A stretch of DNA of 64,000 bases from Cellulomonas terrae (GTDB lineage: Bacteria > Actinomycetota > Actinomycetes > Actinomycetales > Cellulomonadaceae): the NCBI RefSeq assembly GCF_007990265.1, contig NZ_BJWH01000021.1:1-64000 (forward strand), given 5' to 3'. This document shows, piece by piece, positions 1 to 34,724 of this stretch; positions within the stretch are counted from its first letter, which is position 1; each line of letters starts with the position of its first letter. The notes under the pieces were generated by a model, which ran no database searches, was not told the DNA's origin, and was given only the letters and a program-made list of their open reading frames with translations. The position numbers and the translations under genes are program-made.

Positions 1-96
1 CGGGCGTCGCGCCCTGGTGCCCGGGACGCGCGCCCGCCGACGCTCCTCGGGAGATCGCCGGTGAGCCCACCGGCGCCGACCCGAAGGAGCACATCG

Positions 97-780
97 ATGT
101 CCAGCACCACCGTCGAGCCGTCCGCCGGCCAGACCCGTCGATCCGTCCCCGGCAGCAGCCGCGCGTGGGCGTGGACGGGCGTCGCCGCCGGGGCCCTCGG
201 CCTGGCCACCATCCAGGCGTCGCTCGCCGCGTCCGTCGACTGGGACAAGACCCAGGGCGATGCGGTCGCGATGCTCGCCGACGCGGCGACGAAGCAGTCC
301 TCGTTCCTGGTCTTCCACGTGCTCGCCGCCGCGTGCGCCGTGGTGATCCCCGTCTTCGCGGCCGGGCTCAAGCGCCGGATCGACCAGCGCACCCCGGACG
401 GCTCACTGCACGGGACCGTGGCTGCCTGGGGGCTCGTGCTCGTGTCCGTCGCGCTCCTGCTGGGCAGCGGTCTGGACACGCAGTTCTCGCTGGCCCTGTC
501 CGACCCGGACGTGCTCGTGCCCGAGTCCGCCGCGTTCTACACCGACTGGGTGGCGACCATCTCCTGGCTGTGGCTCGGCGCCGGGCTCTCGGGCGTCGCG
601 CTCGCCGTCGCCGCGTTCCGGCACTCGGCCGCGCCCCGCTGGGTCGGCGCCGTCAGCGTCGTGCTCGGCGGGCTCACCCTGATCGCCGGGCTGTCGCCCC
701 TGCAGTACATGGCCGGGTTCACCGGACCCGTCTGGCTGCTGGTCGTCGCGCTCGGGTTCGCCCTCGGCGACCGTCGCTGA
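97..780 (+). CDS. Small integral membrane protein, unknown function
   Basis: The predicted product is 227 aa. It has a polar N-terminus of about 23 residues and then several hydrophobic segments: about 24-45, a strong one near 70-90 (FLVFHVLAAACAVVIPVF), then about 105-125, 150-172 and 180-222. It looks like a five-helix membrane protein of the DUF998-like kind, but I recognise no catalytic motif. I chose ATG 97 over the in-frame GTG 61 because AAGGAG at 84-89 lies 7 nt before it. A strong hairpin follows the stop codon and separates it from the kinase gene. Function is not assigned. Confidence 0.7.
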   Translation: MSSTTVEPSAGQTRRSVPGSSRAWAWTGVAAGALGLATIQASLAASVDWDKTQGDAVAMLADAATKQSSFLVFHVLAAACAVVIPVFAAGLKRRIDQRTPDGSLHGTVAAWGLVLVSVALLLGSGLDTQFSLALSDPDVLVPESAAFYTDWVATISWLWLGAGLSGVALAVAAFRHSAAPRWVGAVSVVLGGLTLIAGLSPLQYMAGFTGPVWLLVVALGFALGDRR

Positions 781-29598: not shown

Positions 29599-30888
29599 CT
29601 ACGGCAGCGCCGGCAGGGCCGCCCGGTAGACCCACGACTCGACGAGGAGCGCGACCGGGGTGCCGGCCACCTCGGACGCGCACGCGACGAGCTGCTCCGT
29701 GCTGACCGTCCCGTGCCGGTAGCGCGCGGTCCACGTGCGCAGGATCTGGAAGAACACGTCGTCCCCCACGGTGAGGCGCAGGGCGTGCAGGGTCAGCGCA
29801 CCGCGCTTGTAGAGACGGTCGTCGAACATCGCCGCCGCGCCGGGATCCCCGATGACCAGGTCCTGCGGCAGGATCATCAAGCGCGCGTGCGCCGAGCGCG
29901 CGTGGCGGTGCGCCGTCCAGCCGCCCGACGCCTCCGACCACAGCCACTCGGCGTAGCAGGCGAAGCCCTCGTGCAGCCAGATGTCCCGCCACCGCCCAAC
30001 GGTCAGGCTGTTGCCGAACCACTGGTGCGCCAGCTCGTGCGCCACCAGCCGTTCCGACCCGCGCCGTCCGTCCATGTGGTTGGCGCCGAACACGGAGAGC
30101 CCCTGCGCCTCCAGCGGGATCTCGAGATCGTCGTCGGTGACGACGACCGTGTACGGGGCGGCGAACGGGTAGGGCCCGAAGCGCTCCTCGAAGAGCGCCA
30201 TCATCTCGGGCTGAGGAGCGAGGTCGTGCTCCGCCGCCTGCTGCAGCCGCGGGGGGACGAGCAGCTGGGTGCCGTGCTCCAAGCGCTGGTAGCGGCCGAT
30301 CTGCAGCGTGGCGAGGTACGGCGCCATGGGCTCGGCCTGGTCGTAGGCCCACCGGACGCGCCCAGCCCTGGGCGCGCGCGAGACGAGCCGCCCGTTGGCG
30401 AGCACCTCGTACCCGGCCTCCGCGGTGACGACCACGGAGAAGGTGGCCTTGTCCGCGGGGCTGTCGTGGCACGGGAACCAGGTCGGTGCGCCGTCGGGCT
30501 GGCCGGCCACGATGAGCCCGTCCTCCAGCTCCTCCCACCCGACCTCGCCCCACGGTCCGCGGGCGGGTCCCGGCTGTCCGCCGTAACGGACCTCGAGGAC
30601 GAGCGACGTCCCGACGAGCACGGCACGGCCGAGCCGGACGGTGAGCCGGCCGTCGCGGTGCGACCACCGTTCGGGCCGCCTCCCGTCGACCAGCACCTGG
30701 CTGACGCGCAGCCCACGCAGGGACAGCGACACCCGGTCGACCACGCTCGACGCCCGGGCGTGCACGACGGCGCGGGCGTCGAGCCTGTTCGTGGCCACGC
30801 GGTAGTCGAGCTCCAGCTCGTACCGGTCCACCGAGAGGCCACCGTCCGGGCGACCGGGCAGGTAGGGGTCCTCCGGCGGCTGCGTCAC
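29599..30888 (-). CDS. M1-family zinc metallopeptidase, possibly a poly-amino-acid degrading enzyme
   Basis: The product is 429 aa. The zinc site HELAHQW (His284, Glu285, His288) is followed by Glu307 in WLHEGFA, the HExxH-x18-E pattern of M1 aminopeptidases. The GAMEN position is altered to EAQGLSVF. The protein lacks the large C-terminal helical domain of full-length aminopeptidase N. Its GTG start overlaps the stop of the Pls-like synthetase (GTGA). In epsilon-polylysine-producing Streptomyces, an M1-type polymer-degrading enzyme (Pld) accompanies Pls. The pairing here suggests a similar role, which is inference. Confidence 0.88.
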   Translation of the reverse strand: MTQPPEDPYLPGRPDGGLSVDRYELELDYRVATNRLDARAVVHARASSVVDRVSLSLRGLRVSQVLVDGRRPERWSHRDGRLTVRLGRAVLVGTSLVLEVRYGGQPGPARGPWGEVGWEELEDGLIVAGQPDGAPTWFPCHDSPADKATFSVVVTAEAGYEVLANGRLVSRAPRAGRVRWAYDQAEPMAPYLATLQIGRYQRLEHGTQLLVPPRLQQAAEHDLAPQPEMMALFEERFGPYPFAAPYTVVVTDDDLEIPLEAQGLSVFGANHMDGRRGSERLVAHELAHQWFGNSLTVGRWRDIWLHEGFACYAEWLWSEASGGWTAHRHARSAHARLMILPQDLVIGDPGAAAMFDDRLYKRGALTLHALRLTVGDDVFFQILRTWTARYRHGTVSTEQLVACASEVAGTPVALLVESWVYRAALPALP

Positions 30889-33800
30889 GCCGGGGACACC
30901 GGGTTCCCCGTCCAGCGGGACCCGGCGGGGATGGTGTCGCCGCGCAGCACGAGCGACGCCGGCCCGACGCGGGCCCCGTCGTCGAGGCTCGCCGCGGGCA
31001 GCACCACCCCGTGCGGGCCCAGGCTCGCGCCGCGTCCGAGCTCGACTGTGTCCATGCTCATGACCCGATCATGGAACAAGTGTGTCTGCAGCACGCACCC
31101 ACGGTTCACGGTGGCGGCGTCGCCGAGCGTCACCAGGTCGGCCTCGGGCAGCCAGTAGGTCTCGCACCAGACGCCGCGGCCGATGCGCGCACCGAGCGTC
31201 CGCAACCAGACGGTCAGCGCGGGCGAGCCGTTCGTGGCCGGACCCAACCACGGGACCGCGACGACCTCCAGGAACGTGTCGGCAAGCTCGTTGCGCCAGA
31301 TGAACGAGCTCCACAGCGGGTGGTCGCCCGGCCGGAGGCGTCCGACGAGGAGCCACTTCGCGGCGGTCGCGAGGGCGCAGGCGACTGCGGCAGCACCGAG
31401 CACGACGACCGGGGACAGCGCTGCTGCGACACCGAGCCCCCACGCGTCGAAGGCGGCCTGGAGCGCGAGCAGGACGACGACGCCGAGACCGAACGTGCAG
31501 ATCACGGGCACGATCCGGCAGAGCTCCACGAGCGCGCGTGCGATCCGCAGCCGCGTCGGGGGCGCGAACGTGCGCGCGTCGTCGGACTCCCCCGCCACCC
31601 GGCGCAGCTTCACCGGCGGTGACCCGAGCCAGCTGGTGCCCGCCCGCGCGTCCTCCGGCGTGGCGGACAGGACGGCGACGAGGCCCCGCTTCGGCACCGC
31701 GCGGCCGGGCGCGATCATCCCCGAGTTGCCGAGGAACGCCCGCTTGCCCACCTTGCTGCGCTCCACCCGGAGCCAGCCGTGCCCGAGCTCGTAGGAGCCG
31801 ATGAGCGTGTCGTCGGCGAGGAACGCCCCGTCCCCGACCGTCGTGAGGGTCGGGAGCATGAGAGCCGTCGACGCTTCGACGTCCTTGCCGATGTCGGCCC
31901 CGAGCGCCCGCAGCCACACCGGTGTCGCCATGCTGGAGTAGAGCGGGAACAGCGTGGTGCGGGCGTCGTCCATGAGCCGCAGCGTCGCCCACACCTGCCA
32001 GCCCGCCCGGCTGCGCACGGCGTGGTACCCCTCGCGGAAGCCGAGCCCGAGCAGCCGCACGGACACGAGCGTCACCACAGCGAGCACGACGACCATCGTG
32101 ACCGCGCCGAGCGGGACGGCCCGCAGGGCGTCGACGGCCGCCTCGGACCGCGTCGTCGCGTCTCGGAGCCCGATCCCGACCACGAGCAGCCCGCACGCCG
32201 CTGCCACCACCGGCAGGGCCGCGAGCGCCGCGGCCGTCGCACCGTAGGCGGCCACCCAGCGCCGGCCGCGGGGTGCCTTGTCGCGCGGCCAGTGGCGACG
32301 CGCCGGCCCGTCGAACACCGCGGGCGACCCCACCCACAGCTCGCCGGGCGGTACGGAGTCGAGCACGGCGGACCCGGGTGCGACCTCGGCCCAGGCACCG
32401 ACGCGGGTGCCGGGCGCCAGCGTGCTGCGCGTCCCGACGGTCGCCCGCTTGTCGATCCGCACCCGGCCGACTCGCAGCACGTCGCCGTCCAGCCAGTGCC
32501 CGCGCAGGTCGACCTCCGGCTCGACCGCGCAGCCGTTGCCGAGCGTGAGCAAGCCGGTGACCGGCGGCAGAGCGTGCAGGTCGACGTCGCGGCCGATGGT
32601 CGCGCCGAGCGCGCGCGCGTACTGCGCGGTCCACGGAGCGCAGGACAGGTTCTCCGCACCCGCCGCCGCGGCCCACGACTCGGTGAACCAGAGCCGTAGG
32701 TGCACCGCCCCGCCGCGCGGGTACCGGCCGGGCGTCAGGCCACGCAGGAGCGTCCGGGCGACGACGACGGTGGTCCCCATGCGCCCGAGCGGGCTGATGA
32801 GCACGAGCCACCCGAGCGCCACCCACCACCAGACGCCGAGCACGACGGGCACCCAGGGCGCTCCGGTCGTCGCGACGAGCACCGCGTCCGCCGCCAGCAG
32901 CCAGGTCAGCCACCGCAGCCCGACGAGCGCGGCGAGCGGCAGCGCGAGCACCGTCTGGACGAGCTGTGCCCGGAGCGGGGTCGGCAGGACGACCCGCGCC
33001 TCGGCTGCGACCGTCGGCTCGAACTCGTCGAGCCGGCGCGCCAGGTCCCCGATCCGCGGATACTCGTAGACGTCCGCGACGGTCACGGTGGGGAACCGCT
33101 CCCGCAGGGCGCTCACCAGCTGCGCAGCCACCAGGCTCCCCCCACCGGACGCGAAGAAGTCGTCGCGGGGGCCGGCGACGGCGACACCGAGCGCCGCGGT
33201 CCAGCGCTCCGCCACCCACGCACCCGTCGCGGTCAGCCCGACAGCTGGCGCGGACTCCTCGTCGGGACGTGCGAGCGGCCACGGGAGCGCGTCGCGGTCC
33301 ACCTTTCCGGAGCCCCGGGTCGGGATCGACTCCACGGGGGCGAGCAGCGGGACCAGCGCGGCCGGGAGCATGCCGGTGAGGCGGTGGCGGGCGTCGGCGA
33401 GGTCCAGCTCGATCCCGGGCTCGGGGACGAGGTAGCCGACGAGGACCGAAGTGCCGGCCGGTGTCCTGCGTACGGCGGCGGCGGCTCCGGCGACCCCCGG
33501 CAGCCCGAGCAGGGCGGAGTCGACCTCGCCCAGCTCGATGCGCCGGCCGCCCACCTTGACCTGGTCGTCGGCGCGCCCGACGAAGACCAGCCCCTCGGGC
33601 TCGTACCGGACGAGGTCGCCGCTGCGGTACGCCCGCTGCCACCCGAGGCCCTCGGCGGGCGCGTACTTCTCGGCGTCCTTGGCCGGGTCGAGGTACCGCG
33701 CGAGCCCGACACCGCCGATGATGAGCTCGCCGAGCCCACCCTCCTCGACCGGCGAACCGTCGGGGGCCACGACCGCGAGGTCCCAGCCGTCGAGCGCGTG

Positions 33801-34724
33801 CCCGATGCGCACGGGCCCGTCGCCGGTGAGCAGCGCCGCGCACGCGACGACGGTCGCCTCCGTGGGTCCGTACGTGTTCCAGACCTCCCGCCGGTCCCCG
33901 ACCAGCCGCGCGACGAGCTCGGGCGGGCACGCCTCGCCGCCGAAGATGAGGAGCCGGACGCCCGCCAGCTCCTCGGCGCGCCACAGCCCGGCCAGCGTCG
34001 GTACCGTCGAGATGACCGTGATGCCCTGCGCGACGAGCCACGGACCGAGATCCATGCCGGTGCGCACGAGCGCACGAGGTGCCGGGACCAGGCAGGCCCC
34101 GTGCCCCCAGGCGAGCCACATCTCCTCGCAGCTGGCGTCGAAGGCCACGGACAGGCCGGCGAGCACCCGGTCGCCCGGGCCGAGCGGTGCCGCCTGGAGG
34201 AAGAGGCGGGCCTCGGCGTCGACGAACGCGGCCGCCGACCGGTGCGTGACCGCGACCCCCTTGGGTGCACCGGTCGAGCCCGACGTGAAGATGATCCAGG
34301 CGTCGTCCTCCAGCGTCGGCCGGCGCGGCTCGGCGGTGCGGCGCAGGCCCGCGAGGTCGCCCTCGGTGAGCACCCGCGCCACCCTCGCCTCGCGGAAGAC
34401 GGTCCGCGCGCGCTCGTCCGGGTCGTCCACGTCGACGGGCACGTACGCGGCGCCGGCGGCGAGGACCGCGAGGATCGCCGTGTAGAGCTCGGCCGTGCCC
34501 GACGGGATGCGCACCCCGACGCGGTCGCCCGGTCCGATGCCCGCACCTGCCAGGCCAGCCGCGGCCGCGCGGACGGCCACCAGCAGCTCGGCGTAGGTCA
34601 GGACCGTGCTGCCGTCGTCGATCGCGGGGGCGTCGCCGTGCGCCAGCGCCGTCGCCTCGAGGACGTCGACGAGGGTGCGCGGCGCGGGCGCGAGGTCGGC
34701 ACGGAGGAACCCCTCGGCCGCCAT
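30885..34724 (-). CDS. Pls-like single-module NRPS: A-PCP with membrane/hexapeptide-repeat terminal domain
   Basis: The product is 1279 aa, close to epsilon-polylysine synthetase in size. The adenylation domain (about 15-480) has FTSGSTGAPKG at 146-156, NTYGPTE at 283-289 and RSGDLVR at 367-373. A carrier domain has Ser530 in FFASGGGSL. The rest alternates membrane helices with three left-handed beta-helix segments, the Pls/PosA C-terminal domain (TIGR02353-like). There is no condensation or thioesterase domain. By comparison with GrsA I read the substrate code D196-A197-E200-S239-I260-G262-T284-V292-V293-K474; the Glu hints at a basic amino acid. It is divergent from valS; GGGGAGG precedes the ATG. 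Confidence 0.9.
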   Translation of the reverse strand: MAAEGFLRADLAPAPRTLVDVLEATALAHGDAPAIDDGSTVLTYAELLVAVRAAAAGLAGAGIGPGDRVGVRIPSGTAELYTAILAVLAAGAAYVPVDVDDPDERARTVFREARVARVLTEGDLAGLRRTAEPRRPTLEDDAWIIFTSGSTGAPKGVAVTHRSAAAFVDAEARLFLQAAPLGPGDRVLAGLSVAFDASCEEMWLAWGHGACLVPAPRALVRTGMDLGPWLVAQGITVISTVPTLAGLWRAEELAGVRLLIFGGEACPPELVARLVGDRREVWNTYGPTEATVVACAALLTGDGPVRIGHALDGWDLAVVAPDGSPVEEGGLGELIIGGVGLARYLDPAKDAEKYAPAEGLGWQRAYRSGDLVRYEPEGLVFVGRADDQVKVGGRRIELGEVDSALLGLPGVAGAAAAVRRTPAGTSVLVGYLVPEPGIELDLADARHRLTGMLPAALVPLLAPVESIPTRGSGKVDRDALPWPLARPDEESAPAVGLTATGAWVAERWTAALGVAVAGPRDDFFASGGGSLVAAQLVSALRERFPTVTVADVYEYPRIGDLARRLDEFEPTVAAEARVVLPTPLRAQLVQTVLALPLAALVGLRWLTWLLAADAVLVATTGAPWVPVVLGVWWWVALGWLVLISPLGRMGTTVVVARTLLRGLTPGRYPRGGAVHLRLWFTESWAAAAGAENLSCAPWTAQYARALGATIGRDVDLHALPPVTGLLTLGNGCAVEPEVDLRGHWLDGDVLRVGRVRIDKRATVGTRSTLAPGTRVGAWAEVAPGSAVLDSVPPGELWVGSPAVFDGPARRHWPRDKAPRGRRWVAAYGATAAALAALPVVAAACGLLVVGIGLRDATTRSEAAVDALRAVPLGAVTMVVVLAVVTLVSVRLLGLGFREGYHAVRSRAGWQVWATLRLMDDARTTLFPLYSSMATPVWLRALGADIGKDVEASTALMLPTLTTVGDGAFLADDTLIGSYELGHGWLRVERSKVGKRAFLGNSGMIAPGRAVPKRGLVAVLSATPEDARAGTSWLGSPPVKLRRVAGESDDARTFAPPTRLRIARALVELCRIVPVICTFGLGVVVLLALQAAFDAWGLGVAAALSPVVVLGAAAVACALATAAKWLLVGRLRPGDHPLWSSFIWRNELADTFLEVVAVPWLGPATNGSPALTVWLRTLGARIGRGVWCETYWLPEADLVTLGDAATVNRGCVLQTHLFHDRVMSMDTVELGRGASLGPHGVVLPAASLDDGARVGPASLVLRGDTIPAGSRWTGNPVSPA

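Follow-up and report, generated by a model that had tools for sequence, protein, structure and literature searches.

A probable pls-pldII gene pair for the synthesis and degradation of epsilon-polylysine in Cellulomonas terrae

Introduction

Epsilon-polylysine is an antimicrobial polymer that is used as a food preservative. The locus described here raises the question of whether two overlapping genes of Cellulomonas terrae encode one enzyme that makes this polymer and another that breaks it down. Both genes are located within a 64,000-nucleotide stretch of contig NZ_BJWH01000021.1, which we call the window. An initial annotation proposed that their products are a synthetase resembling epsilon-polylysine synthetase (Pls) and an M1 peptidase that acts on the same kind of polymer. 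We conclude that the locus is very probably a pls-pldII operon, with both the synthetase product and the peptidase activity predicted from sequence.

In the mechanism we propose, the A domain of the synthetase would activate L-lysine with ATP and load it onto the T domain. Three tandem membrane-anchored LbH (acetyltransferase-like) domains would link the lysines through bonds between alpha-carboxyl and epsilon-amino groups, and the resulting short polymer would exit the cell. Translated together with the synthetase, the M1 zinc peptidase would cleave the same isopeptide polymer, either for self-protection, for recovery of lysine, or for both. Lysine use, the polymer product, its degradation, and the proposed self-protection are assigned by analogy with the literature on orthologs. 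Presumably, the pair is expressed in the source organism, and epsilon-polylysine is synthesized and degraded there.

The synthetase and its overlap with the downstream gene

The features of the locus are collected in Table 1. The larger protein had been described as an A-PCP-membrane/LbH protein without C or TE domains, and profile searches bear out this description. NCBIfam model TIGR02353, which represents the Pls/PosA family, matches residues 589-1276 with 712.7 bits compared to a cut-off of 423.1. Pfam detects an AMP-binding domain and a phosphopantetheine site (PP-binding) at E values up to 0.001, together with a single sub-threshold hexapeptide repeat, and finds no condensation or thioesterase domain. 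The protein is thus composed of an A domain, a T domain, and, at its C-terminal end, a Pls/PosA terminal domain. The T-domain serine at the S530 column is kept in all 117 aligned sequences.

Table 1. Features of the pls-M1 locus in the window and parts of the predicted synthetase.
Feature	Position	Strand	Basis
pls, epsilon-poly-L-lysine synthetase ortholog, 1279 aa, ATG start	30885..34724	-	TIGR02353, Pfam, 7wew match
pldII-type two-domain M1 zinc metallopeptidase, 429 aa, GTG start	29599..30888	-	Pfam Peptidase_M1 + M1_N, motif, predicted fold
4-base overlap GTGA, pls stop/M1 start	30885..30888	-	junction sequence
Codon of phosphopantetheine serine S530, T domain (GGGSL)	33135..33137	-	computed from start at 34724
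Synthetase A domain	residues ~9-485		
Synthetase T domain	residues ~503-565		
Synthetase terminal membrane/LbH region	residues 589-1276		

In the terminal region, simple hydropathy analysis reveals three clusters of hydrophobic residues, at 588-647, 823-897, and 1064-1127, each with room for two helices, as well as a weak hydrophobic segment inside the A domain (79-99). The three clusters are consistent with the six membrane helices described for Pls, which would separate three acetyltransferase-like (LbH-like) domains (PMC8117764). Only weak matches to solved structures are obtained for the terminal region (best E 0.001). The closest solved relative of the synthetase is 7wew, the adenylation domain of an epsilon-poly-L-lysine synthase (663 bits). 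Next comes linear gramicidin synthase, two domains of which match, at 363 bits. A Streptomyces protein (L138) matches 7wew with 672 bits, and therefore the window synthetase is approximately as near to this structure as its Streptomyces counterpart. This comparison with a characterized Pls, which the initial annotation had recommended, supports the assignment of the protein as an ortholog of epsilon-polylysine synthetase with an identical specificity code.

The M1 gene was also noted to overlap the synthetase stop, and the overlap is four bases long. At the junction (...CCGGCGTGACGCAG...), the sequence GTGA is common to the GTG start of the M1 gene and the TGA stop of the synthetase gene. We infer that the two genes are translationally coupled through this overlap. 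In Streptomyces albulus, pldII adjoins pls with a 4-bp overlap in a single operon (PMC4361855), and is termed translationally coupled and self-protective (PMC9223678). The window pair has the same position and overlap, in agreement with the proposal that a Pld-type enzyme accompanies Pls here. We compared the junction with those of 101 related loci, of which 21 come from relatives and 80 are named loci (the 80 best-scoring of 594 confirmed, and thus closer relatives only, all actinobacterial by title). A start that creates a 4-base overlap is possible at 63 of the 101, and a conserved M1 start is located no more than 200 bases from the pls stop in 99. The two exceptions are Williamsia sp. 1135 (L075) and Dietzia natronolimnaea (L106), where 634 and 1247 bases, respectively, separate the pls stop from the M1 gene.

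A combined promoter and terminator scan at the locus was empty. Its consensus search found no sigma-70-like promoter, a result that says little for a high-GC actinobacterium. This outcome is in line with a silent locus that yields no product under ordinary conditions, which would be compatible with its identity as a pls-pldII operon. There is a precedent in Corynebacterium variabile, whose functional gene is reported to be silent in culture, with no detectable polymer; transfer to C. glutamicum was also unsuccessful, and the gene was functional only when the S. albulus promoter drove it in S. coelicolor (PMC8117764). However, both reading frames of the window pair are intact, including the catalytic residues, and the four closest congeners keep the synthetase at 91-96% and the peptidase at 83-90% identity. 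In Cellulomonas xylanilytica (L063), identity is 95% over the whole synthetase. We consider a silent locus unlikely.

The downstream M1 peptidase

The smaller protein carries the Pfam domains Peptidase_M1 and M1_N. Its zinc motif HELAH...E is intact (H284, E285, H288, and E307) and is kept in all 115 aligned M1 proteins. The same is true of E260, which aligns with the glutamate of the GxMEN motif. The predicted fold has a mean pLDDT of 87.1, and the ten best PDB matches of the model all correspond to a Deinococcus radiodurans M1 metallopeptidase with two domains (6a8z, 6iff, 6ifg). The two proteins share this fold with TM scores of about 0.8, although the window peptidase is only 30% identical to the Deinococcus enzyme. 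Gene position and the Streptomyces loci support the classification of the protein as a putative pldII-type ortholog.

The peptidase begins with MTQPPEDPYLPG, which is not hydrophobic, and hydropathy analysis found neither a signal peptide nor a membrane helix in the M1 protein. The highest mean hydropathy over 19 residues is 1.40, at residue 400. Because the peptidase is without a recognisable export signal, one could imagine that the pair runs an intracellular make-and-break cycle in which a lysine polymer serves storage or buffering, rather than or in addition to an exported antimicrobial with extracellular self-protection. Cyanophycin synthetase and cyanophycinase form a comparable storage-type pair. 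We view such a cycle as a speculative and rather improbable explanation for the window pair. The missing export signal contrasts with S. albulus, where PldII is placed outside the membrane (PMC9223678).

Publications disagree on what the peptidase does. According to a review, inactivation of Pld and PldII altered neither production nor chain length (PMC8506220), whereas a repression study describes longer chains and lower tolerance (PMC9223678). Degradation activity has been published for the S. albulus counterpart.

Inheritance of the gene pair

M1 peptidases are not confined to loci of this type, and the gene might encode an ordinary cytosolic aminopeptidase whose position behind the synthetase is coincidental. 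Retention of E260 in all 115 M1 proteins is expected for an aminopeptidase. Furthermore, among 296 genomes sampled across the phylum, 37 have an M1 match at E values up to 1e-35. In 23 of the 37, the related two-domain M1 gene is 33-43% identical and no lysine-type synthetase is present. The wider M1 family is therefore not tied to the synthetase.

Several observations argue against coincidence for the close homologs. All 80 named loci (the best-scoring 80 of 594 confirmed) have an M1 gene downstream of the synthetase gene and in the same orientation, on which basis chance adjacency or an annotation effect was rejected. Of 57 relatives examined, 22 encode a lysine-type synthetase, and exactly these 22 also encode an M1 protein of at least 50% identity (18 of 35 within the genus and four of 22 outside it); and coordinates place the M1 gene next to the synthetase in all 22. 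One of these pairs (G035) includes a synthetase split over two contigs, with the M1 gene adjoining the 3ˊ part. Linked M1 proteins of the 22 relatives each score at least 392 bits, compared to 34% identity and 221 bits for the best M1 match in a relative that lacks the lysine-type synthetase (G039). Short, partial matches elsewhere reach 36-38% identity. For these 57 relatives, the difference in score led us to reject the idea that the M1 gene encodes a general peptidase that occurs with or without the synthetase. In the phylum sample, 14 of the 296 genomes (including that of C. terrae) contain a reading frame of synthetase size (1290-1420 aa) that matches the terminal domain in full, and all 14 carry an adjacent M1 gene of at least 50% identity. 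No adjacent M1 gene (E up to 1e-35) was found for the other TIGR02353 matches, which are located in G215, G182, G040 (two), and G069 (two fragments).

Tree and distance analyses complement these counts. A single clade of the 115 synthetase-linked M1 proteins that excludes all 17 unlinked ones was not obtained. However, a branch with full support divides the linked proteins from 16 of the 17 unlinked ones, which we selected from 55 unlinked places in the phylum sample (13 proteins) and from the relatives (four proteins); the exception is a fragmentary M1 protein of 26% identity (L176). Synthetase and peptidase distances are correlated between matrices (r 0.90, a value reached by none of 999 permutations), although species history alone could give such a correlation. 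With the degradation activity published for the S. albulus counterpart also in its disfavour, coincidental placement of an ordinary aminopeptidase is a very improbable explanation, and a dedicated pldII-type partner of the synthetase is preferred.

Six of eight window neighbours, whose labels (ValS, ClpX, etc.) were read off the sequence without a family search, were found among the 80 named loci (best 80 of 594), in two to five loci each. Five of the six are confined to four Cellulomonas loci, and the sixth is also present in L075 and L131. Because none occurs in more than five of these 80 loci, the pair seems to travel largely without its neighbours outside the genus. Within the genus, 15 congeners have a pls gene 75-96% identical to that of the window, and three others (L021, L022, and L023, from G014, G006, and G011) have one that is 59-62% identical, like those of other families. 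This pattern suggests separate acquisition or replacement of pls at these three loci.

Other arrangements were also encountered. Three loci of the phylum sample, L178 (G215:C5), L179 (G182:C1), and L180 (G040:C14), carry terminal Pls/PosA-type domains on frames of 829-919 aa that seemingly lack a full adenylation domain of their own. A separate adenylation-carrier match is located nearby on the same strand, so that the layout is a split one, and these loci have no close M1 gene. In the relative G044, which is not one of the 22, a Pls/PosA-family member of 34-37% identity has a different code and no close M1 homolog, and a divergent M1 match is present nearby on the opposite strand (L026/L176, G044:C63). 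At L177 (G049:C117), an adenylation-domain gene adjoins a two-domain M1 gene that is divergent (29% identity) and is encoded on the opposite strand.

Substrate specificity of the synthetase

The initial annotation read the A-domain code as D-A-E-S-I-G-T-V-V-K and took it to indicate a basic substrate such as lysine or ornithine. Our alignment of 117 sequences reproduces this code, with the ten residues at D196, A197, E200, S239, I260, G262, T284, V292, V293, and K474. All ten are identical in 7wew, whose code was taken from a printed alignment. The code is found in 79 of the 80 named loci, the remaining one being DAESVGTVVK, in all 13 loci of the phylum sample, and in all but one of 23 relatives; at least three genes are shared between these sets (L006/L063, L013/L064, and L018/L154 are apparently the same genes). 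The A domain is incomplete in loci L143-L155, although each of the ten code residues is readable there. The odd relative is L026, a protein of 34% identity with the code DFEYNGTVTK, which has Phe at position 2 as does the diaminopropionate enzyme.

Because its code equals that of the 7wew enzyme, the substrate of the window synthetase is likely lysine. The code had been proposed for comparison with those of non-basic substrates, and it matches a lysine enzyme rather than a non-basic one. Position 2 is reported to track substrate length, with Ala in lysine enzymes, Met in PosA, and Phe in the diaminopropionate enzyme (PMC10522769). The Ala at this position favours lysine over ornithine, and a reading of the code as an ornithine code was rejected on this basis. 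Production of any other cationic homopolymer (delta-polyornithine, gamma-poly-diaminobutyrate, beta-poly-diaminopropionate, or epsilon-poly-beta-lysine) is hardly probable at all. The Pls/PosA family as a whole spans such products (PMC8117764, PMC10522769) and its cationic homopolymer synthetases share the Glu at code position 3 (PMC10522769), but the Ala at position 2 and the full identity with 7wew point to lysine, the published beta-lysine code is a different one (D-G-E-S-I-S-V-V-N-K; PMC10522769), and the diaminobutyrate and diaminopropionate synthetases are described in a different gene context (PMC8117764).

Relation to known systems and implications

The locus most closely resembles Pls-PldII of S. 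albulus, with which it shares the A-T-terminal-domain architecture, the ten-residue code, and a peptidase directly downstream with a 4-bp overlap. It differs in host and in the length of the peptidase, which has 429 aa compared to about 467 (1404-bp gene, PMC9223678). For the S. albulus synthetase the comparison covers the A domain; other Streptomyces loci are 60-62% identical over the whole synthetase. In C. variabile and other coryneforms, the synthetase is likewise a single protein whose gene shares an operon with a peptidase gene. The product was established there through heterologous expression (Jiang 2021, PMC8117764), whereas that of the window pair is predicted. PosA, the delta-poly-L-ornithine synthetase of Acinetobacter baumannii, belongs to the same family and has the same Asp at position 1 and Glu at position 3 of the code, but it differs in having Met at position 2 and His/Asn at positions 4/5, and its published description mentions no obvious co-transcribed neighbours (PMC10522769).

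A limited literature search for Cellulomonas and polylysine returned a single paper, on nattokinase. Judged by its sequence, the window pair has the testable features of the pls-pldII system, with the exception of peptidase location. Operons of this type have already been published and are widespread, and the known picture is unchanged by this example. The locus adds a likely epsilon-polylysine pair in Cellulomonas, and the counts presented here show the extent to which the peptidase and the lysine-type synthetase are inherited together. Its practical value would be that of a further candidate producer gene together with a candidate degrading enzyme.
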